This document shows positions 53,289-64,000 of a DNA stretch of 64,000 nt, piece after piece. The stretch's first letter is position 1; each line of letters begins with the position of its first letter. This stretch comes from Morganella morganii (lineage in GTDB: Bacteria > Pseudomonadota > Gammaproteobacteria > Enterobacterales > Enterobacteriaceae), in contig NZ_VKKS01000001.1 in NCBI RefSeq assembly GCF_019402645.1, positions 2,300,769 to 2,364,768 of the forward strand, written 5' to 3'. The position numbers and the translations under genes are program-made. The notes under the pieces are model-generated. The model was given only the letters and a program-made list of their open reading frames with translations, had not been told where the DNA came from and did not search any database.

Positions 53289-56200
53289 ATGATCAGACGA
53301 TTTATTATCCTTATCATCGCATTGATTCTCTGCTACATCATCTGGTGGGTCGGGCCGATGATTGCCATCGGAAACTTTTACCCGCTCGCACGGGTGCTGG
53401 TACGCCAGATCATTATCGGCATTATTCTTTTCTGGGCGCTGTGGCCGTTTGTGGCTTTCCTGTTCAGCCGTCTGTTCCGTTTTCTGCGCACCCCGCTGCC
53501 GAAGCCGAAAAAGAAGATTATCCAGCTGGACCGGGTAACCGCCCGTTTTACGGATGCTATACGGACGCTGCAATTTATTGCGCTGGCCGGTAAAAAAACC
53601 CGCAGCGAGCGGATGAAAATCCATTTCAGCCGCGAATATATCAACAACAAACCCTGGTTTGTGGTGATGGGGCCTGCCGGATGCGGCAAAACCTCCGTGA
53701 TTTATGACAGCGGTGAGCAGTTCCTGCTTTCCGAGCAGTACGGATTACCCCGCACCACGGATGTCGGCCCGACTGTTGACTGCAACTGGTGGCTGACAGA
53801 ACGCGCCGTGTACATTGATACTGCCGGGGAATGGGTGCAGATGCACGGACAGAGTGACGATGCCGGTAATGCACGGCAGAAACTGTATGCCCTTATCCGT
53901 AAACACCGCCGCTATCCCGGCATCGACGGGATTATTTTGTGTGCGGATATCGGCACACTGCTGTATGCCCCTCTGACAGAACGGAAATCACTGGCTGACA
54001 CATTGCGTATCCGCATTCTGGAAATGGCCGCACTTTTTCAGTCCGATATTCCGGTTTATCTGTTGCTGAATAATATTGACCATCTGCCCGGCGGTGAAGC
54101 GTTCCTGAATATCGCCGATGACGACCTGCTTGCCGGCGGTCTGGGGATCAGCCTGCAATGCACAGACGATCACCGCAATAATTTTATTCATGATGAAAAT
54201 ACCTATCACCAGTTACAGATCCGGGTCAGCAACTATATTCTTGAAACCCTGCACAATGTGCCGGATGACGGATTACGCCACCAGCTGCTGCTGTTTATTG
54301 AATCTCTCGGCGCACTGCAAAAACCGTTGTTTTCCTTTCTCGAACAGATCTTTCCGGCATCCGCGATGGGTTATACCGGATGCCTGCGGCAGATGTGGAT
54401 GGGCAGCACCACCCCGCTGATGGCGCGTGAGAGCTTATATAACGCGGATGCGGACGGGTTATTTGATGAGCGCCAGTCCGGCAGAATGTACTTTCCGGCA
54501 CTGACACAGGCAATCACCGAACGGGGTGTGCTGCACAGTGCCCGCTACCGGCCGCTGCGCAACAAACTGATTTCCGCCGCCCGTTACTCCGCAGTGACTG
54601 CCGGTCTGCTGGCTGTAGTGATGATGCTCTCCTCCCGCTATTTCTGGGAATCGGATTTTATTTCCTATGCCAGCGCCCGCTTTGAGGAAACCAAACGGAT
54701 TGTCCGCGATATTCCGGTCACCAGTCAGTTTAATGATGACCTGATTGCCGCTTATGAACAGCTCGGCTATATCAACACACAGTTTCTGGAAAGTTCTCCG
54801 CCGCTGCTGACGCCGTATTTCGAACATAAGCTGCTGAGTAATGCAATGGAGCAGACTTACCGGCGTCATCTGTACAAGATCTTCTGGCCTGCCGTGGAAA
54901 ATTATATCGCCAACGAACTGAAACAGAGCGCACTCAACGGTAATACCGATGCTTACGACACACTCAAGGTCTATCTGATGATGGTTTATCCCTCATACCG
55001 GGAGCCGGAAGCGCTGGAAAACTGGTTTATGATCCGCTGGGACAACTACGCGGTACAGGGCTATACCGAAAATGACCGCCGCCTGTTCCGCTATCATCTG
55101 CACGAGTTATTCAGTGACACCTCATCCACAGCACCAGCAGCAAAAATGAATGCAGAGCTGGTACGTATCGCCCGTGTCAATGCCATGAAAACACCGATCC
55201 ATCTGCGGGTGGTTAACCGTATCAAAGATAAACCATTGCCTGCCGGTATTCAGAATATCTCGCTGGCGGATGCCGCAGGCCCCAGTGTATCGCTGATGTT
55301 GCGCCGCAAAAGTACCAATACAGTGACAGATACCGCCATTTCCGGTTTCTACACAAAAGCAGGCTATAAGGATGTCTTCCTGCCGCAATTACAGGATGCC
55401 GCAACTGATATGATCAGTGAGGAAAACTGGGTACTCAGTGACAACACAGAAAAACGCGGTGACATCGGCACACAGGAGGCGATTCAGACTTTATCCAATG
55501 AAGCACTGAAAGCCTATCTGTCTGAGTATGCTAATCAGTGGGAGAGTTTCCTGAAGGATATCCGTGTCCGGCCAATCAGTGATCTTGATGACGCGGCGCA
55601 ACTTGCCCGCCGGTTTACCGAGCCATCCTCACCGCTGACCAGCCTGGTACAGTTTGCCATCGATGAAACAACACTGAGCCGCGAAAACCAGCAGGATGCC
55701 ACCGCATGGTTCGCCCGTCAGGAAAACAAGCTGACTCAGACCCGTCGCTCATTACTGGATGGTATCAGCAACGATCGCTCTGCCGGGAGCACGCCGGAGA
55801 AAACCCTGGAAACCCGGTTTGAAGCACTGCACCGTCTGCGTCAGGCCGAAACCGCCGGCGCCAATGATCCGTTATTCACGGCGTTTGACCAGGTTTACAA
55901 CAAACTCGCCACCCTCTCCGCTTCACTGCGTGCCGGTCAGATTCTGCCGCAAAACAGCGAAATCAACCGGTTACGCGATGATATGCTGCGCCAGCCGGAG
56001 CCGGTACGCAGTGTCATGATAGATCTGCTTTCAACAGGTGAAAAACAGAGCCTGCAAAAAAGCAAAGAAAACCTCAGCCGTGGTGCTTCATCAATTGCTT
56101 CAGATTCCTGCCGGACAACTATCAGCGGCCGCTACCCGTTTAACCGGGGCGCAAGAGAAGAAGCCGGGATTGGGGATTTCACACGGATGTTCGGGCGCGG

Positions 56201-56762
56201 CGGGGCAATCCAGAGTTTCTTTGATGAAAATCTGGCCGCCTATGTGAATACCGGCGCAACACCATGGCAAATCCATCCCGGCAGCCGCGGCGTGGTATCA
56301 GCCAAAACAGTGGCATCATTTGAGAATGCCGCCCGCATCCGTGATTCCTTCTTTGATCCGTCAGGGGCGATGGCGATGTCCATGATTATCCGCCCGATCT
56401 CACTGTCACCTTCTGTTCTGGAAGCCGTGCTGGATATTGACGGCCAGATAGTCCGCTACAGTCACGGCTATCAGGAGCCGGTCAAAATTAACTGGCCGGG
56501 TCCCAAAGGCGGCATTTACACGCGCCTGACATTTAAAACACAGGACGGACAGGTAGAAACGGTCAGCTTTGACGGGCCGTGGGCGCTTTTCCGGATGTAT
56601 GACGCCAGTAACCCGGTACAGCTGAGCAGCAACAGCCGCCAGCTCACTATGGCGATGGGTCAGGTGAAAGGATTCTTTGTTGTCGAGCTTAATTCAACAA
56701 TGAAGGATTATCCGTTGTGGTCACGGGCATTAAAACAGTTTTCCTGCCCGGGTAATATCTGA
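53289..56762 (+). CDS. tssM: T6SS membrane protein TssM (IcmF)
   Basis: TssM spans the inner membrane and periplasm and connects to TssJ. The 1,157-residue protein has two N-terminal helices (about residues 5-25 and 40-60), then a cytoplasmic NTPase domain with an intact Walker A (GPAGCGKT, 128-135) and DTAGEW (Walker B-like). A third helix near residues 430-450 leads to the IcmF periplasmic region, ending in the beta-rich C-terminus that contacts TssJ. Intact Walker A suggests active nucleotide binding. Confidence 0.96.
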   Translation: MIRRFIILIIALILCYIIWWVGPMIAIGNFYPLARVLVRQIIIGIILFWALWPFVAFLFSRLFRFLRTPLPKPKKKIIQLDRVTARFTDAIRTLQFIALAGKKTRSERMKIHFSREYINNKPWFVVMGPAGCGKTSVIYDSGEQFLLSEQYGLPRTTDVGPTVDCNWWLTERAVYIDTAGEWVQMHGQSDDAGNARQKLYALIRKHRRYPGIDGIILCADIGTLLYAPLTERKSLADTLRIRILEMAALFQSDIPVYLLLNNIDHLPGGEAFLNIADDDLLAGGLGISLQCTDDHRNNFIHDENTYHQLQIRVSNYILETLHNVPDDGLRHQLLLFIESLGALQKPLFSFLEQIFPASAMGYTGCLRQMWMGSTTPLMARESLYNADADGLFDERQSGRMYFPALTQAITERGVLHSARYRPLRNKLISAARYSAVTAGLLAVVMMLSSRYFWESDFISYASARFEETKRIVRDIPVTSQFNDDLIAAYEQLGYINTQFLESSPPLLTPYFEHKLLSNAMEQTYRRHLYKIFWPAVENYIANELKQSALNGNTDAYDTLKVYLMMVYPSYREPEALENWFMIRWDNYAVQGYTENDRRLFRYHLHELFSDTSSTAPAAKMNAELVRIARVNAMKTPIHLRVVNRIKDKPLPAGIQNISLADAAGPSVSLMLRRKSTNTVTDTAISGFYTKAGYKDVFLPQLQDAATDMISEENWVLSDNTEKRGDIGTQEAIQTLSNEALKAYLSEYANQWESFLKDIRVRPISDLDDAAQLARRFTEPSSPLTSLVQFAIDETTLSRENQQDATAWFARQENKLTQTRRSLLDGISNDRSAGSTPEKTLETRFEALHRLRQAETAGANDPLFTAFDQVYNKLATLSASLRAGQILPQNSEINRLRDDMLRQPEPVRSVMIDLLSTGEKQSLQKSKENLSRGASSIASDSCRTTISGRYPFNRGAREEAGIGDFTRMFGRGGAIQSFFDENLAAYVNTGATPWQIHPGSRGVVSAKTVASFENAARIRDSFFDPSGAMAMSMIIRPISLSPSVLEAVLDIDGQIVRYSHGYQEPVKINWPGPKGGIYTRLTFKTQDGQVETVSFDGPWALFRMYDASNPVQLSSNSRQLTMAMGQVKGFFVVELNSTMKDYPLWSRALKQFSCPGNI

Positions 56763-56783
56763 TAAACGAAAAGGACAGTCATT

Positions 56784-57137
56784 ATGTTAGATCCGAAAAA
56801 TGTACAGTCGGTACTGAAATTCAGTACCGAATCAGGAAATGAATCTGCTTCAGAATTACAGAAACCCTTCATGGAAGGGATTGAAAATATGAATATGTCC
56901 GGTTCGGATGCCTCCCGTTCAATACTGAAGAACGTCAATCAATCCTGTGACCAGATGATGAAGGAAATGGGAAAAATGTTTGATGGCTTGCAGGATAATC
57001 TGGATGCACATCAGAAAATGCAGCAGGACGAGCGGCCGAAAGACTTTGATACCGCCATGAAGGATTTGCGGACAACACTGTCTTCAGGTTTCCCGGAAGA
57101 AATGAAAAGTATGTTTGATAAAATGCCGAAGATATAA
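56784..57137 (+). CDS. Small hypothetical protein at the end of the T6SS operon
   Basis: I do not recognise this 117-residue protein. It follows tssM by 21 bases with an AAAAGGA site and ends at a terminator, so it belongs to the operon. It is hydrophilic and probably helical (SEQSASELQKPFMEG-type pattern; NQSCDQMMKEMGKMFDGLQDNLDAHQKM could be a coiled coil), methionine-rich with no signal peptide or membrane segment. Possible roles are chaperone, adaptor, immunity protein or small effector; none is supported by a motif. Confidence 0.7.
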   Translation: MLDPKNVQSVLKFSTESGNESASELQKPFMEGIENMNMSGSDASRSILKNVNQSCDQMMKEMGKMFDGLQDNLDAHQKMQQDERPKDFDTAMKDLRTTLSSGFPEEMKSMFDKMPKI

Positions 57138-57146
57138 TCCGGCCGG

Positions 57147-57179
57147 AAAAAATACCGGGTCAATCCCGGTATTTTTTTA
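57147..57179 (+). terminator. Rho-independent terminator of the T6SS operon
   Basis: An 11-base stem (AAAATACCGGG at 57147-57157 with its complement, short loop) runs into a T tract, shortly after the last T6SS-locus gene. Confidence 0.92.
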
Positions 57180-57230
57180 TACTGAACAACGACAATCAAT
57201 AATCACTGTTTTGTTCCTAGTTTTATACTC

Positions 57231-57259
57231 AAAAAAAACACGAAAGCATAGCTTTCGTG
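57231..57259 (-). terminator. Rho-independent terminator of the trehalose operon
   Basis: A nine-base perfect stem (CACGAAAGC at 57239-57247 with 57251-57259, ATA loop) is followed on the minus strand by eight T residues (A run 57231-57238). It lies about 100 bases after the porin stop. Confidence 0.9.
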
Positions 57260-57362
57260 CAGGAATAAACAAGATATTTCCCTTTACCCTGATTCCCTTT
57301 AACAATGCAAATAACACAGATGGATATGATTAAACAAAATGGCTTTCAATACAGAGAAACCA

Positions 57363-58748
57363 TCAGAATAAATATTTAAAACGAATACGCGCACCATAAC
57401 GATCGTTATCTTTACCGTCAACCGTCGTCATATCGTCATTCCCGGTAATATGGGAGTAATAAGCCCCAAGGTATGTTTTAAAATTATCCATCCCTAATAT
57501 ATCAGGCAACTCATAAGACGTAAACACTGTATTAATATTATATTTACCAGGATTTAAAATATCATACTTATTATCATCAAACGAGCTGACAACCTGATAT
57601 GATTTAATATCATTATGGGAATATATATAACCAAGCTGGAATTTTCGCCATAAAATATTAGTACCGGCAGAGAAATCATTTTCATTTTTTGCATCCAGAT
57701 AAGCGGTACTGACATTAACGACTACCCCATTCTCCGGATCATTTTCCAGCGTATCCCATTTTATGGTCAGGCCATAACCGGTACGCCGGGACTGATCCTC
57801 AAATTTCCCTTCCGCATTATTAAAGCCGTATGCATTACTGATAACATTAGCATCCACTGCCCCCGCAATCGTGAAGTTATCGTAATTCCATGCCACAACA
57901 GGACGGACATAAATCACATTCTTTTTATTCTGTAATTTACGTCCATGATATTCCTGATCTTTAAAGACACTGCTGCCATCTTCAATCAGCGTATTCACCT
58001 CAAAATACCAGTTATCATAGTTACTGCTGAGGTTCATCCCACCCCCGCTGTTACTTCGTCCCCGCCCTTCCTTCATCATATAAATGTAGCCGAAGCCATC
58101 TGCATAGAGATCATTAGCACTGTTACCCGAATGTTCGACAAAGGTATCCTGGTTCAGCGGAAACATATCATAGGCTTCATAGCGACCAATTTTATATTTC
58201 CATTTATCTTCTTTGCCAAAATAAAATACCGCATCATCAAGCCCGATATTCCCTGACATATTGGCTAACGGCTGAACACTGAAACCGGCATAATTACCGT
58301 TATCCAGTTTTCTCTGCCCGTCAAGGCCGATTAAAATCCGTCCGTTAATATCCCAGCGTTCTCTATCACCGAAATCATCAGCTCCGCGTCCGGCCTGCGT
58401 CTGCATTGAGGTAATCTGCCCTTTACGGCTGGCAGCATCAATATTAAACTCCACGTCACCGTATAATTTTAATGACCCTTTGCCATTATCTGCACTGACA
58501 ATATTACTGAAACCGGCGGCATTCCCCTGACGGGTATTCCCTGCCTCAGCCGTATTTTTGGCCATTAAATTTTCCAGACGTTCTGCTTTTTTTTCTGCCG
58601 CCACAGCTCTTGCTTCTGCTTCAGACGCTCTTTTTTCAAGGCTGTTCAGACGTGCCTCAATATCACTCAATGATGTTTCGGCACCGGCAGAAAAAGGAAT
58701 AACAGAAACAGCAAGTCCTGTTATTAATGCTAATTTATTTAATTTCAT
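57363..58748 (-). CDS. Sugar-specific outer-membrane porin (ScrY/RafY-like)
   Basis: A 461-residue outer-membrane porin with a signal peptide (ending SAGA, before ETSLSDIEA). The mature N-terminus has a 45-residue alpha-helical coiled coil (SLSDIEARLNSLEKRASEAEARAVAAEKKAERLE), as seen in ScrY and RafY. A beta-barrel with aromatic girdles follows, ending in FKYLF. As the last gene of the tre cluster it most likely lets trehalose (or related disaccharides) cross the outer membrane. Separated from pgmB by 94 bases containing a short hairpin (58784-58801). Substrate is inferred from context. Confidence 0.85.
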   Translation of the reverse strand: MKLNKLALITGLAVSVIPFSAGAETSLSDIEARLNSLEKRASEAEARAVAAEKKAERLENLMAKNTAEAGNTRQGNAAGFSNIVSADNGKGSLKLYGDVEFNIDAASRKGQITSMQTQAGRGADDFGDRERWDINGRILIGLDGQRKLDNGNYAGFSVQPLANMSGNIGLDDAVFYFGKEDKWKYKIGRYEAYDMFPLNQDTFVEHSGNSANDLYADGFGYIYMMKEGRGRSNSGGGMNLSSNYDNWYFEVNTLIEDGSSVFKDQEYHGRKLQNKKNVIYVRPVVAWNYDNFTIAGAVDANVISNAYGFNNAEGKFEDQSRRTGYGLTIKWDTLENDPENGVVVNVSTAYLDAKNENDFSAGTNILWRKFQLGYIYSHNDIKSYQVVSSFDDNKYDILNPGKYNINTVFTSYELPDILGMDNFKTYLGAYYSHITGNDDMTTVDGKDNDRYGARIRFKYLF

Positions 58749-58841
58749 TTTATCTACCTTTGTTCACTACGATCGGATGGCGGCAGTATATGAATATACT
58801 GAGCCTTTATTATGGTGATTTTATTATCAGAAGTTTAATTA

Positions 58842-59501
58842 TTATTGCTTTGTTTTTAATACATATTCAGGCGTAACATCTTCAAATGAAGAAATAATAA
58901 GATCAGCACCGGTTAACAGTGATTTATCTCCGCTGACTCCGACTGAAAAAATACCCGCACTTTTTAGTGCGGTAATACCCGACTGCGCATCCTCAAAGCC
59001 TATTGCATCCTGTGGCTGAACATTAATCGATGATGCCGCTTTCAGAAATATTTCGGGATCCGGCTTACCGTTAGTCAGCAACGCCGGATCAACAACTGAC
59101 TTAAAGTACTTCTCAATATTGAGTTTTTTTAAAATAAAAGGCGCATTACGGGATGCGGAAGCAACAGCACAAGGTATATTAAGCTTATTTGCACGAATAA
59201 TAAAATCACGGAATCCGGGTAAAATATTATTTTCAGACAACTCACCGAGTAAATTTACATAATAATCATTTTTTTCATCCGCCAGCGTGCTCTTCTCTTC
59301 CGGGCTGAGAATATCAGACTGATGACCATAATCTAATATTTTATCTAACGACTCCATCCGGCTGATACCTTTCAGTTCCTCATTAAACTTCTCACTGATA
59401 TCAAAGCCTGATTTATTGGCAATATATCGCCAGGCGATATAATGGTACTTCGCCGTATCAACAATCACGCCGTCCAAATCGAATAAAAACCCTGATTTCA
59501 T
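58842..59501 (-). CDS. pgmB: Beta-phosphoglucomutase
   Basis: PgmB converts beta-glucose 1-phosphate to glucose 6-phosphate through beta-glucose 1,6-bisphosphate. HAD-superfamily motifs: nucleophile Asp in FDLDGVIVDTA (first and second Asp), cap domain with ISRMESLDKIL (arginine and serine for phosphate), the Lys/Ser region VASASRNAPFILKKL, and motif IV acids GKPDPEIFLKA, GFEDAQSGI. Length 219 matches the family. It overlaps the GH65 gene stop by four bases (ATGA), so the two are translationally coupled; this pairing implies that beta-G1P is produced by the upstream enzyme. Confidence 0.93.
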   Translation of the reverse strand: MKSGFLFDLDGVIVDTAKYHYIAWRYIANKSGFDISEKFNEELKGISRMESLDKILDYGHQSDILSPEEKSTLADEKNDYYVNLLGELSENNILPGFRDFIIRANKLNIPCAVASASRNAPFILKKLNIEKYFKSVVDPALLTNGKPDPEIFLKAASSINVQPQDAIGFEDAQSGITALKSAGIFSVGVSGDKSLLTGADLIISSFEDVTPEYVLKTKQ

Positions 59502-62194
59502 GATGTGTATTCCTTTACATAAGTATATGATAACGGAGAACCAGCTTTAATCTGGTGTTTCTCATTATAAATATCGATATATACCTCTTTATCTGTGGTG
59601 ACTGATACCGATTTCTGTGAGATTAAAAAATAATAATGAACACCACGATGCTGTAAATTAAAACTGATACACTTCCATTCTGCCGGTAATGACGGTGAAA
59701 CCGATAAACGGTCACTACGGATATCCACGCCGGCATAGGACATCACAGCTGTATTTATTGTCGCGGCCATTACTCCTGTATGAATCCCTTCTGCGGTGGT
59801 ACCACCCTGAATATCACCATAATCTGACCGCAGCGCCTGCTGATATAATTCCCGGGATAAATCATGTAATCCGGTATCACAGGCCAGCTGAGCATGCACC
59901 ACTCTGGATAATGTTGAACCGTGAGAGGTTCGTTTTAAATAATAATGAAGATTAGTTTGTGCATAATCACGCCCCGGGTGGTAGCCCATGTTATTCAATA
60001 TTCCGGTAACATCATCACGGGAAAAATTATTGAATATCATTAATGCATCAGCCTGTTTGGCTACCTTATAGTCATCCGCACTTTTACCTTCAGCACGCAG
60101 TATTCTGTCCATCCGGTAAATGTTGCCGTACTTATTCTGATAGTGTTCCCAGTCAATCTCTTTCAGGGAAAAATACCCGTCAAACTGTGCAATCACATCA
60201 TCTTCAATCACCAGCGCTAAATATTTACCGGTATGACTGATATCCTGAATAAATGCAGTATTTTCCTCACCGGCATTAAACTGCGGATACAATTCTGTCA
60301 GAACGGAAAATAACCAGGAGACCATTAAATTGGTATAAGCATTATCTTTGAGCCCGGCGCTGCGGCTGCCGCTCATATGCTCATGAAACTCATCCGGCCC
60401 CATAACTCCGCTGACAGAATAACGCCCGGTTGCCTCATCATATACGGCTTTACTCAGCCAGAAACGGGCAATTTCTGTCAGCATTTCCATACCGTACAGC
60501 CGCATAAATTCCGCATCACCGGTGTTTTTCCAGTACAACCATATATTATAAGCAACGGCCAGAGAAACATGACGCTGAAGATGACTGTAATCCGGATCCC
60601 AGTGACCGTTCAGCGGATTCAGATGGACAGACTGAGTCTGTTCGCTGCCGTCCAGACCGGACTGCCACGGATACATCGCGCCCTTACAACCGCTGTCCTG
60701 CGCAATTTTCCGCGCCGCCGGTAACCGGTTATAACGATACATCAGCAACTGACGGGCCGTCTGCGGGAAATGCATAATATAAAAAGGCAGGATAAAGATC
60801 TCATCCCAGAAAATATGCCCCCGGTATGCTTCACCATGTAAACCCCGGGCGGTCACCGAGACATCCGTTTTATATTTTCCGTTACTGTACGGTGAACAGG
60901 ATGACAACAGATGACAGATATGCAGACGCAATAACTTCTGCGACATTAAATCACCTTCAATAACAATATCCGCCTTGTCCCACAAATTTTTCCATGCCTG
61001 TTCAGAGGCTTCAGCCTGAACAGAAAAATCTGCCAGTGTTGTTTTATCTGCATCCGCCCAATTATCCGGAAACACAGAAGAGAGACGGATATTGATACTT
61101 TTCTCAAGGCGGTATGTTTTCCCCTTCGTGGCGTGACAGGTAATAAACTGCGCCACCTTGCCCGGTTCCTCTTTTATCTGAATATCGCTGTCAGTGAAAA
61201 AATCACCGCGTATTTTTGTGGTCACCCCTATACCAATGCCGGATTGCAGTGTCCGCGCATTTAATTGCGCATAACTCCCCTCAGCCGCGCGGGATAATAC
61301 CTTGTAATGGTGTGAAGTCAGGCTCCGGTAACGTTCCACACCATAGTTACGGGTCGTGCCGTCAATCCTGGTGGCAATGGTAATATCAGCATCAAAATTC
61401 AGTGGCGTGAAACAGTATTCAACGGCAAACCGCTCCGGGCAGGACATATCCGCCAGCATCCGGCTGTTAATCTGAATAAGATGTTTGCGGGAATCTTCCG
61501 CAATCCAGGTTTGCTCCAGAATACCGTTTTTTAAACACAGGTTCCGGTATAACATTTTATTACGGCAATTTTCCGGCGATAACCATTCACCATCACCTAT
61601 CTTTATCCTGATAGTACGGGCGTCAGGCGCATTAACAAAATCTTCATTGGATACGGTATTTCCGGCAATGTCTGACTCAGCCCGGTTATAACAGCCTGCC
61701 AGATAGGTTGCCGGATAAGCCGCATCCCCGGCCTGCATATCCGGCAATGCTCCGCGCACCCCCAAATACCCGTTTGCTGTGGTTAATAATGACTCAACGG
61801 CATATTCTTCTTTACCCGCAGTAAATCCGGCATAGTCGATATTCCAGCAGAGCTGCTCATATTTCTGTATTAACGCCTGTTCCAGTTTATCTTCCGTGAA
61901 TACCTTTTTTCCCTGTTGCTGAACAAAGGGAGCATTGAAGATTTCTGAAAAGGATTTTTCCAAATCAATAATGACATTACCGGCCAGTTCAGCACAAAAT
62001 GAAGCATAATCCGGTACACGGTTACCCGTGATAATCCCCCCTTTAATCCCGGGAAAATCACGGCTGATCTCCGTTAAAACGTCCAGACATGTTTTAACGG
62101 AGATTTCATTCCAGCAAAAAGCATAATCATATTTATCGTTGCCGGAAAAAATATCGGCTCCATTTTCTTTTACAGAAATAGTCAGATAACACAT
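59498..62194 (-). CDS. GH65 phosphorylase, probably trehalose-6-phosphate phosphorylase
   Basis: GH65 inverting phosphorylase of 898 residues. The canonical parts are ANGYLGVRGALP (140-151), GLHGEAYRGHIFWDEIFILP (451-470), HWDPDYSHLQRHVS (531-544) and the general-acid motif GPDEFHEH with Glu602. It lies between treB and pgmB, so the expected reaction is trehalose 6-phosphate plus phosphate giving glucose 6-phosphate plus beta-glucose 1-phosphate. The first 110 residues are an extension absent from typical 750-residue members. FWDEIF is one residue shorter than the FWDTEIF I recall from maltose/kojibiose enzymes. Unphosphorylated trehalose, maltose or kojibiose as substrate cannot be excluded. 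Confidence 0.85.
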   Translation of the reverse strand: MCYLTISVKENGADIFSGNDKYDYAFCWNEISVKTCLDVLTEISRDFPGIKGGIITGNRVPDYASFCAELAGNVIIDLEKSFSEIFNAPFVQQQGKKVFTEDKLEQALIQKYEQLCWNIDYAGFTAGKEEYAVESLLTTANGYLGVRGALPDMQAGDAAYPATYLAGCYNRAESDIAGNTVSNEDFVNAPDARTIRIKIGDGEWLSPENCRNKMLYRNLCLKNGILEQTWIAEDSRKHLIQINSRMLADMSCPERFAVEYCFTPLNFDADITIATRIDGTTRNYGVERYRSLTSHHYKVLSRAAEGSYAQLNARTLQSGIGIGVTTKIRGDFFTDSDIQIKEEPGKVAQFITCHATKGKTYRLEKSINIRLSSVFPDNWADADKTTLADFSVQAEASEQAWKNLWDKADIVIEGDLMSQKLLRLHICHLLSSCSPYSNGKYKTDVSVTARGLHGEAYRGHIFWDEIFILPFYIMHFPQTARQLLMYRYNRLPAARKIAQDSGCKGAMYPWQSGLDGSEQTQSVHLNPLNGHWDPDYSHLQRHVSLAVAYNIWLYWKNTGDAEFMRLYGMEMLTEIARFWLSKAVYDEATGRYSVSGVMGPDEFHEHMSGSRSAGLKDNAYTNLMVSWLFSVLTELYPQFNAGEENTAFIQDISHTGKYLALVIEDDVIAQFDGYFSLKEIDWEHYQNKYGNIYRMDRILRAEGKSADDYKVAKQADALMIFNNFSRDDVTGILNNMGYHPGRDYAQTNLHYYLKRTSHGSTLSRVVHAQLACDTGLHDLSRELYQQALRSDYGDIQGGTTAEGIHTGVMAATINTAVMSYAGVDIRSDRLSVSPSLPAEWKCISFNLQHRGVHYYFLISQKSVSVTTDKEVYIDIYNEKHQIKAGSPLSYTYVKEYTS

Positions 62195-62214
62195 GTTAAA
62201 TTCACTTTATTAAT

Positions 62215-63639
62215 TTACAGAGAAGTTACCAGGGTGCCTTTGCGCTGCTGATAACGGTATATCATCATTGTCAGCAGGATCGGGACAACAATGGCCACTA
62301 TCATGGCAACAAGGTAAGTACCCCAGAAAACGGGCTGGATAGACAGAATGCCGGGAATACCGCCGACACCAATACCATTGGATAAAACATGAGCAAAACC
62401 GCAGATTAACCCCGCCAGCGCAGCACCAATCATGGCGCACAGCATAGGGAAACGGTAACGCAGGTTTACACCATACATAGCCGGTTCAGTTACACCCAAA
62501 TACGCAGATATTGCTGCCGGAATCGTTATTTCCCGCTCATCTTTTTTACGGCTCATAATAATGATGCCGACAACCGCAGAGGCCTGTGCAATATTCGATA
62601 ATGCAATAACAGGCCAGATAGGTGTTCCGCCGATGCTTTGTGTCAGCTGCATATCAATCGCTAATGTGGTGTGGTGCAATCCGGTAATAACCAGAGGAGA
62701 ATAGAAAAAACCAAATATCATCGAGCCGATTAATGCAAAATCACCCAGCATTAAATAACGGACACCTTCTGAAATAACATTGCCGGCGGCCCGGCCGAAT
62801 GGCCCCAGAATGGCATGGGCCACAACCACAGAAACCAGAATGCTGATAATCGGCACCACCACCAGTGTTAAATATTCCGGAATACGGCGGCGTAATTTCA
62901 CTTCAAACCAGCCAAGAAATAAACCGGCCAGAATGGACGGAATAACCTGAGCCTGGTATCCCACCTTCTGAATAGCAAATAAGCCAAAATCCCAGATATC
63001 CGGTGTCTGACTGCCCATGCTGTAAGCATTCATCAGCTGAGGTGACACTAATGTAATTCCCAGCACAATACCCAGGATCGGAGAACCGCCCATTTTTTTG
63101 GTTGCTGACCAGCAAATAGCCACCGGCAGGAAATGGAATATTGCCTCACACGGTAACCACAGGAAATCATATATCGGTTTAAGCCAGGAATAATACGCGG
63201 TCAGTGGTTTATCATCCTGTACCGGCATTTCTCCGATAACATTTCTCAGCCCCAGTAATAAACCGCCACAAATTAATGCAGGCAGCAAAGGAACAAAGAT
63301 TTCAGCCAAATCAGCAATAAGCCGCTCCCAGAATTTCATATTTTTCTTAGCCGCGACTTTTGTTTTTTCTTTATCTGATTCAGATATATTGAGTTTTTCT
63401 ATTAAGGCCCGGTAGTAATCACCGACATTCATACCGATAATAATCTGAAATTGTCCGGCATTATTAAAACACCCTTTGACCTCGGGTATTTGCTTAATAG
63501 ATTCAATATCTGCCAGTTCAGGATCATTTAAAACAAAGCGTAATCGTGTCAGACAGTGAGATACTGTGCTGATATTTTCCTTCCTGCCGGTAAATCTGAT
63601 GATCTTATCCAGTACGTCACTGTTAACATTAATTTCCAT
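62215..63639 (-). CDS. treB: PTS trehalose-specific EIIBC component
   Basis: TreB imports trehalose and phosphorylates it to trehalose 6-phosphate; the EIIA is normally the shared glucose Crr. The EIIB domain has the phospho-cysteine in STVSHCLTRLRFVLND and the EIIC has GVTEPAMYGVNL. Extended stretches match E. coli TreB (GGSPILGIVLGITLVSPQLMNAY, GYQAQVIPSILAGL, GIGVGGIPGILSIQP). ATG 63639 (MEINVNSDVLDKII) fits the E. coli start and gives 474 residues (E. coli 473). A longer frame from 63696 would run through the operator region and is unlikely. It is first in the structural operon. Confidence 0.96.
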   Translation of the reverse strand: MEINVNSDVLDKIIRFTGRKENISTVSHCLTRLRFVLNDPELADIESIKQIPEVKGCFNNAGQFQIIIGMNVGDYYRALIEKLNISESDKEKTKVAAKKNMKFWERLIADLAEIFVPLLPALICGGLLLGLRNVIGEMPVQDDKPLTAYYSWLKPIYDFLWLPCEAIFHFLPVAICWSATKKMGGSPILGIVLGITLVSPQLMNAYSMGSQTPDIWDFGLFAIQKVGYQAQVIPSILAGLFLGWFEVKLRRRIPEYLTLVVVPIISILVSVVVAHAILGPFGRAAGNVISEGVRYLMLGDFALIGSMIFGFFYSPLVITGLHHTTLAIDMQLTQSIGGTPIWPVIALSNIAQASAVVGIIIMSRKKDEREITIPAAISAYLGVTEPAMYGVNLRYRFPMLCAMIGAALAGLICGFAHVLSNGIGVGGIPGILSIQPVFWGTYLVAMIVAIVVPILLTMMIYRYQQRKGTLVTSL

Positions 63640-63700
63640 ATCCCCTGTCCCCGTATCAAACATCTCAGTTAAAAATACGTTCAGTATGGAAATCACTCAA

Positions 63701-63714
63701 TGGGAACGATCCCA
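63701..63714. promoter_or_regulatory. Candidate TreR operator upstream of treB
   Basis: TGGGAACGATCCCA is an almost perfect palindrome centred on CG, the form expected for a LacI-family operator. It lies between the treR stop and the treB start, about 60 bases before treB. Trehalose 6-phosphate is the inducer of E. coli TreR. Confidence 0.65.
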
Positions 63715-63758
63715 ATACGGGATGGATATCACATAAAAATTTATTTAATTTAATTAAA

Positions 63759-64000
63759 TCAATAGGTAAATGAAGGTGATGGAATCAGATATGTTTTTGC
63801 CGAAAAATTGCCGTTAACCATATCAATCAATAAGTTGACTGACTTCTGACCAGTTTCACTAAGACCCAGACGGCATGTTTTCACATCCGGAAAAAGAAAG
63901 GTTAATAAATCATTTCGTCCGATACAAGCGACAAAAATAGTATTAATCTGATGATGAAGGAGATACTTTTTAACACCAAATGCCAGTGATTCAGTCGCAC
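63759..64000 (-). CDS. treR: Trehalose operon repressor TreR, C-terminal part (cut by window end)
   Basis: The last 80 codons of a LacI-family regulator run into the window from the right edge. The visible segment reads ATESLAFGVKKYLLHHQINTIFVACIGRNDLLTFLFPDVKT and then GLSETGQKSVNLLIDM, ending at TGA 63759. This matches the LacI-fold ligand domain end of E. coli TreR (ALALGASKYL, SVGNTPLMKFLHPEI, AGRQAACQLI). The DNA-binding domain is outside the window. It is co-oriented with treB, as in E. coli. Confidence 0.9.
   Translation of the reverse strand, partial: ATESLAFGVKKYLLHHQINTIFVACIGRNDLLTFLFPDVKTCRLGLSETGQKSVNLLIDMVNGNFSAKTYLIPSPSFTY

Follow-up and report, generated by a model that had tools for sequence, protein, structure and literature searches.

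A Morganella morganii trehalose operon predicted to use a GH65 trehalose-6-phosphate phosphorylase with a ROK-like N-terminal lobe

We analysed a stretch of Morganella morganii DNA (64,000 nucleotides of NZ_VKKS01000001.1, here called the window; coordinates are window positions) that holds a trehalose gene cassette. With the treR/treBC operon of E. coli this cassette shares a TreR-type repressor, a TreB-type phosphotransferase system (PTS) permease and a palindrome of the GGGAACGTTCCC type; treC, which encodes a GH13 hydrolase, is replaced by genes for a predicted GH65 phosphorylase and a mutase, and a porin gene is added. The question raised by the locus is which sugar the GH65 enzyme, TreP, splits and by what reaction. 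We put at roughly 0.93 the probability that the cassette is a TreR-controlled operon for trehalose use, in which PTS import is followed by phosphorolysis of trehalose 6-phosphate (T6P) by TreP and by the action of the β-phosphoglucomutase PgmB, with a probable horizontal origin and a ROK-like lobe on TreP. On the minus strand the genes are intact and stand in the order treR, treB, treP, pgmB and RafY-type porin, with a terminator-like hairpin behind the last. The original prediction, treB followed by a GH65 gene overlapping pgmB and then a porin, under TreR, is confirmed in gene order and in the families matched:

63759..64000, minus strand: treR, 3′ part only, the gene running on to about 64712 beyond the window (317-residue open reading frame, genome stretch L002:9528-10481)
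63702..63713, minus strand: TreR-operator-like palindrome GGGATCGTTCCC between treR and treB, a near-perfect GGGAACGTTCCC
62215..63639, minus strand: treB, trehalose PTS permease EIIBC, 474 residues, probable start ATG 63639 (PRK11007, TIGR01992)
59498..62194, minus strand: treP, GH65, predicted T6P phosphorylase, 898 residues (Pfam Glyco_hydro_65N, 65m, 65C)
61895..62194, minus strand: treP residues 1-100, ROK-like N-lobe by predicted structure, signature motifs lost
58842..59501, minus strand: pgmB, β-phosphoglucomutase (TIGR01990, 241.8 bits vs 189.4)
57363..58748, minus strand: RafY-type glycoporin, last gene of the cassette (PF16966)
57238..57260, minus strand: terminator-like hairpin and T-run 3′ of the porin gene, 10 pairs (5 G-C), loop of 3, then TTTTTTTGAG; a consensus match only

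Five adjacent, co-oriented genes match their own families, so chance is no concern. TreR scored 363.9 bits with TIGR02405, the trehalose operon repressor (cut-off 357.35), and TreB scored 826 bits with NCBIfam PRK11007 (cut-off 409) and 642.1 bits with TIGR01992 (cut-off 591.95). The GTG start listed for treB at 63696 is probably too early; ATG 63639 (residue 20) is preferred because the PRK11007 match opens at residue 23 (profile position 4). The GH65 central domain of TreP scored 379 bits (cut-off 27), and the GH65 core opens near residue 117, which leaves an N-terminal extension ahead of it. PgmB carries FDLDGVIVDT, the DxD nucleophile loop, near its N-terminus and finds solved β-phosphoglucomutases as its best PDB matches. 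The porin matches PF16966 (“Porin-like glycoporin RafY”) over profile positions 1-372 of 372 with 449.3 bits (cut-off 25). Between treB and treP lie 20 bases, treP and pgmB share 4, and 93 separate pgmB from the porin gene.

In the available part of PMC8537180 a fingerprint for GH65 T6P phosphorylases is given at CsKP positions 64, 392, 394, 402, 416 and 585, validated on one enzyme; Caldithrix CaGP has a fingerprint identical to DQGQDE and made T6P from β-glucose 1-phosphate and glucose 6-phosphate. In our alignment TreP reads DQGQDE, agreeing at 6/6 positions. Searches with TIGR02403 found no treC in the own genome (0/1), nor in any of the 6 Morganella genomes searched; the search control had matches in 13/14 genomes at E 0.001, above the family cut-off in only 2. 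Trehalase was not found in any of 7 genomes, the own included (control 3/14). The search for treC elsewhere in the genome had been suggested in the original prediction.

Since a PTS permease and an overlapping pgmB are present and neither TreC nor trehalase found a match, the most economical reading is PTS import followed by phosphorolysis and the mutase reaction. Trehalose would cross the outer membrane, probably with the help of the RafY-type porin, and TreB would take it up and phosphorylate it to T6P. TreP would then use inorganic phosphate to cleave T6P, giving glucose 6-phosphate and β-glucose 1-phosphate, and PgmB would convert the latter to glucose 6-phosphate, the flux presumably running in this direction. 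Compared with hydrolysis by TreC, phosphorolysis would save the ATP for phosphorylating the second glucose; this saving, like TreB's reliance on the general EIIA-Glc (Crr), is established knowledge. The route predicted earlier for this locus is thus supported by the fingerprint, by the position of treP between treB and pgmB and by the failure to match treC or trehalase.

Relatives of the locus were then compared (the best 80 of 189 were kept). The Enterobacterales set comprised 11 named loci, two from Morganella, one each from Pectobacterium, Samsonia and Arsenophonus, four from Providencia and two from Proteus. treB, treP and pgmB are adjacent in all 11 (with treB fragmented in Arsenophonus and one P. 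stuartii record); in 10 they are preceded by treR, and in 9 the porin gene stands behind pgmB, in one of these, L033, in two frames. Among the best 80 of 189, pgmB follows treP in 17/17 Bacillota loci, and a treB homologue lies in the fetched stretch in 6/17. No close DNA relatives of treP were found in E. coli genomes. The broken genes are those of Arsenophonus nasoniae (treB, L036 5504-6956), of the Providencia stuartii record (treB, L041 5533-6972), in which clpB is broken too, so that sequencing errors are possible, and of Morganella FAM24679 (porin, L033 10427-11816). Two records named as Enterococcus phages (OR846588.1, PQ520077.1) contain GH65 genes that share about 50% identity with treP and probably represent host DNA, and two Proteus mirabilis records of 4.1 Mb listed as plasmids (NZ_OL790811.1, NZ_OL790812.1) are, by their size, suggestive of chromosomes.

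The distribution of treC qualifies the claim that the phosphorylase and mutase stand in its place. Among 10 named cassette-bearing genomes treC scored above the cut-off in 2 (Pectobacterium and Samsonia); Proteus myxofaciens had a match of 516.7, below the cut-off, and Providencia alcalifaciens a weak one of 27 bits. There was no match in the other 6 of the 10, namely the two Morganella genomes, Arsenophonus, P. stuartii, P. mirabilis and P. vermicola. A separate treC search covered 12 genomes, at least three of which overlap with the 10 named ones (identical coordinates). A Pectobacterium-type genome, G369, holds a classical treB-treC pair (L149 3747-6914) and also a treB-treP-pgmB-porin cassette (L006). 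Replacement of TreC, as originally predicted, therefore holds for the 6 Morganella genomes, for P. mirabilis and for three other treC-less bearers of the cassette, and fails for the Pectobacteriaceae, which have both systems. The cassette is also present in P. mirabilis ATCC 29906, which has no treC match. In the available part of PMC13289894, which does not deal with treP, a ptsH mutant of P. mirabilis HI4320 shows greatly diminished growth on trehalose; the phenotype fits the predicted route in this cassette-bearing relative.

TreR would repress the operon through the palindrome ahead of treB until T6P is present. The scan for this palindrome covered the own locus and 10 named Enterobacterales loci, with Arsenophonus left out, over about 135-160 bases each. 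GGGAACGTTCCC was found ahead of treB in all 11 loci, exactly in 8 and with one mismatch in 3 Morganella loci, but the consensus used is that of E. coli, and several loci are near-copies of one another, so these are not 11 independent observations. The next best site in each locus had at least 5 mismatches. A CRP-like half-site, TGTGAT, lies at 63728-63733, near the palindrome. Sites of such types are bound by TreR and CRP, whose roles are well established, and the candidate palindrome suggests that TreR controls this operon.

Several points weigh against T6P phosphorolysis, besides the limits just given for the palindrome scan. The NCBIfam whole-length GH65 model gave TreP 284.6 against a cut-off of 838, the membership of TreP in the T6P phosphorylase clade rests on the fingerprint and on its separation from kojibiose-phosphorylase-like proteins, and a biochemical assay of TreP or a close relative was not found in the literature. 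In the Pectobacteriaceae, which carry treC together with the cassette, the cassette may be redundant or act on a different sugar. The GH65 family covers many specificities, and with a separate treB-treC pair retained in the Pectobacteriaceae another substrate is conceivable there; TreP could act on another α-glucoside (kojibiose, maltose or unphosphorylated trehalose), its place beside treB being incidental. We consider this very improbable. The motifs listed in the available part of PMC8537180 for maltose phosphorylases (KV[MF]NES), kojibiose phosphorylases (EEAPxx) and the assayed trehalose phosphorylase (TRIGPP) do not fit the DQGQDE of TreP, and a sugar delivered by a PTS permease is phosphorylated. 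In the same alignment 21 enterobacterial GH65 proteins, at most 33% identical to TreP, read EEA[EPA]VE, unlike TreP.

The GH65-core tree, built from 46 rows picked for spread out of 110 aligned (L003-L005, the own copy and two near-own copies, being left out of the alignment), sets TreP apart from 5 kojibiose-phosphorylase-like rows with a support of 100/100; it does not include L. lactis TrePP or Caldithrix CaGP. GH65 matches occurred in 64 genomes, of which 30 supplied loci, 27 of these being fingerprinted; the other 34 were not looked at further. TreP also retains R755, H758, S760 and T761, which align with the phosphate-binding loop of GH65 phosphorylases and which we take to be its phosphate-binding residues; kojibiose-type proteins have Ser in place of Thr at the last position. 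That TreP is instead a T6P hydrolase, as the depositors of its closest solved relative, Weissella ceti PDB 9lb6, named their molecule, is more improbable still, given the retained loop residues and the overlapping β-phosphoglucomutase gene, which would be pointless without β-glucose 1-phosphate. In the deposited records of 9lb6 and 9lb7 the molecule is named T6P hydrolase and the title says T6P phosphatase; by eye they are GH65 proteins with the T6P-phosphorylase fingerprint, and the label is probably misleading. The preferred reading thus remains T6P phosphorolysis.

Part of this system is already known in Morganella. In the available portions of PMC7446228 (2020), PMC8638253 (2021) and PMC11264931 (2024) the treR-treB-treP operon is a mark of M. 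morganii subsp. sibonii. The Figure 1 legend of PMC8638253 names treP as trehalose 6-phosphate phosphorylase, presence of the operon tracks fermentation, and a natural strain whose treB contains an IS5-family element is negative for trehalose fermentation. PMC13129497, on M. sibonii and likewise available in part, places the type VI secretion system (T6SS) i3 v.1 just downstream of the tre operon. The operon, its link to fermentation and its T6SS neighbourhood are therefore prior knowledge, and the suggestion that this block underlies trehalose use in the lineage agrees with print and is not new. The main texts of these four papers contain neither “pgmB” nor “phosphoglucomutase”, and “porin” only once, on antibiotic impermeability. 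An operator, a fingerprint, an origin or an N-terminal lobe was not found in the available text of the sibonii operon papers.

To the same operon we add pgmB and the porin gene, the operator-like site, the fingerprint, the evidence for transfer, the lobe and the wider spread. For Morganella this completes the operon and gives a sequence-level test for treP, which these papers name by annotation only. Apparently new, in that we did not find them in the literature, are the recurrence of the cassette in Proteus, Providencia, Pectobacterium and Samsonia, the proposed horizontal origin and the predicted ROK-like lobe; among open-licence papers, no description of a treR-treB-treP-pgmB(-porin) cassette in Proteus or Providencia was found. 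The closest biochemical parallel is Lactococcus lactis, where, according to citations and summaries of Andersson et al. 2001, PTS uptake, the GH65 T6P phosphorylase TrePP (EC 2.4.1.216) and β-phosphoglucomutase are used; the three components are shared, and the same chemistry is expected. Morganella differs in having a Gram-negative operon with an E. coli-type TreR and an outer-membrane porin. Its TreP carries the predicted ROK-like lobe, which L. lactis TrePP may or may not share.

The Morganella cassette was likely acquired horizontally, because treP sides with Pectobacteriaceae in the tree and by identity, against the order given by clpB identity, and because the cassette is AT-rich compared with its neighbours. 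In the tree all 14 Enterobacterales rows cluster together (100/100); inside this cluster Morganella joins Pectobacterium and Samsonia (100/100) and stands apart from Providencia, Proteus and Arsenophonus. Morganella treP is 65-67% identical to that of Pectobacteriaceae vs 50-53% to that of other Morganellaceae. The order is reversed for clpB, with 83-85% identity to five Morganellaceae genomes with unbroken clpB vs 81-82% to four Pectobacteriaceae; the broken clpB of P. stuartii gave 87% over part of its length. The G+C content of the cassette is 42.4% vs 51.5% on the T6SS side and 50.9% on the clpB side. Horizontal acquisition is thereby indicated for a trait used in classification.

treP was present in 3/6 Morganella genomes. 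In the tre-negative G003 other genes lie between the T6SS end and the stretch that matches the own sequence beyond treR; we take them to be autotransporter-like and small LprI-like. A clean empty site was not obtained in tre-negative Morganella (G003, and G001 and G004, which are covered on the clpB side only), and tssM had no match in tre-negative G001. Ribosomal RNA genes or a 5S end stand at matching places in tre-negative G001 and G003. No rRNA was found between treR and clpB in the own genome, where the stretch holds a short unread run, and an rRNA locus in that interval is only a guess.

The N-terminal extension of TreP was examined by structure prediction. AlphaFold2 gave residues 1-100 a predicted local distance difference test score (pLDDT) of 77 when modelled alone; in the full model, residues 1-90 fall into blocks scoring 88-94. 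The top matches of the lobe model in Foldseek and VIA-align 2 were ROK proteins or other sugar kinases, and the predicted fold of residues 1-100 accordingly resembles a ROK sugar-kinase or repressor N-lobe. A profile search of PDB sequences with the lobe gave three matches, of which the top two were ROK (E 0.065 and 1.3). The lobe is common to TreP of Enterococcus, Listeria and relatives. ROK kinases are marked by a DxGxT nucleotide loop and by the catalytic Asp in NDAN. Neither motif is present in any of 27 lobe members, an Asp at the expected place occurs in 3/27, and a vestige of NDAN noticed by eye in a few sequences was not upheld by this count. The ROK C-terminal lobe is not present in TreP, the GH65 core opening at the point given above. 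The lobe is apparently inactive as a kinase.

Sequence comparison alone does not show the kinship with ROK proteins: with the 7 ROK sequences from loci L115-L135 that passed the motif filter, hhalign gave 0.12% and E 0.49, and Pfam ROK had no match for the first lobe member, nor did it appear in the family listing of the 27 members at E 10. A by-eye likeness of the extension to a remnant of the HAD/β-phosphoglucomutase domain fused in Chlorobiaceae and others was rejected: hhalign, run against 30 aligned fused HAD domains out of 44, returned a probability of 0.15% and E 0.39, and the extension is predicted to have a ROK N-lobe topology. It is unlikely, in our judgement, that the lobe is something else, be it an unrelated small α/β fold, another member of the actin/hexokinase/RNase H class or a remnant of a fused β-phosphoglucomutase domain. 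None of the PDB matches was a solved structure with the lobe, the solved close relative 9lb6 being without it, and among open-licence papers no description of such a domain in T6P phosphorylases was found. The ROK-like lobe is most likely a structural or docking leftover. A more specific proposal, which we regard as speculative and doubtful, is that the T6P phosphorylases of Bacillota and Enterobacterales, whose genes often lie with one for a trehalose PTS permease, captured a ROK N-lobe of the Mlc/NagC/glucokinase type that lost catalysis and now serves as a regulatory or docking module, perhaps sensing a hexose or hexose phosphate or binding the permease, and so couples T6P splitting to uptake. 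For enzymology an unannotated domain in one branch of T6P phosphorylases is a concrete target.

Related branches appear mostly to have fused the next enzyme of the pathway, β-phosphoglucomutase, to the same end of the GH65 core instead. In 52 loci (L059-L112 without L073 and L085), from Chlorobiaceae, Bacteroidota, Elusimicrobiota and others, 44 encode an N-terminal β-phosphoglucomutase-type HAD domain and GH65 in one polypeptide. The fingerprint of this group is DQAQDE in 42 loci, DQGQDE in 7 and different in three. These proteins resemble Morganella TreP in the GH65 core (40-45% identical) and in the near-identical fingerprint, and differ in the fused HAD front domain in place of the ROK-like lobe. 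No treB homologue was found in the stretches of the group, some of which are short. One catalytic core thus occurs with either of two front domains, the sugar-kinase-like lobe in one case and the fused mutase in the other.

Around the Morganella cassette no RNA features were found at Rfam gathering thresholds in window 56500-64000, and no tRNA in the genome stretch L002 around treR. On the 3′ side of the cassette the T6SS cluster (tssM and a small gene, window 53289-57137) ends right beside the porin gene.

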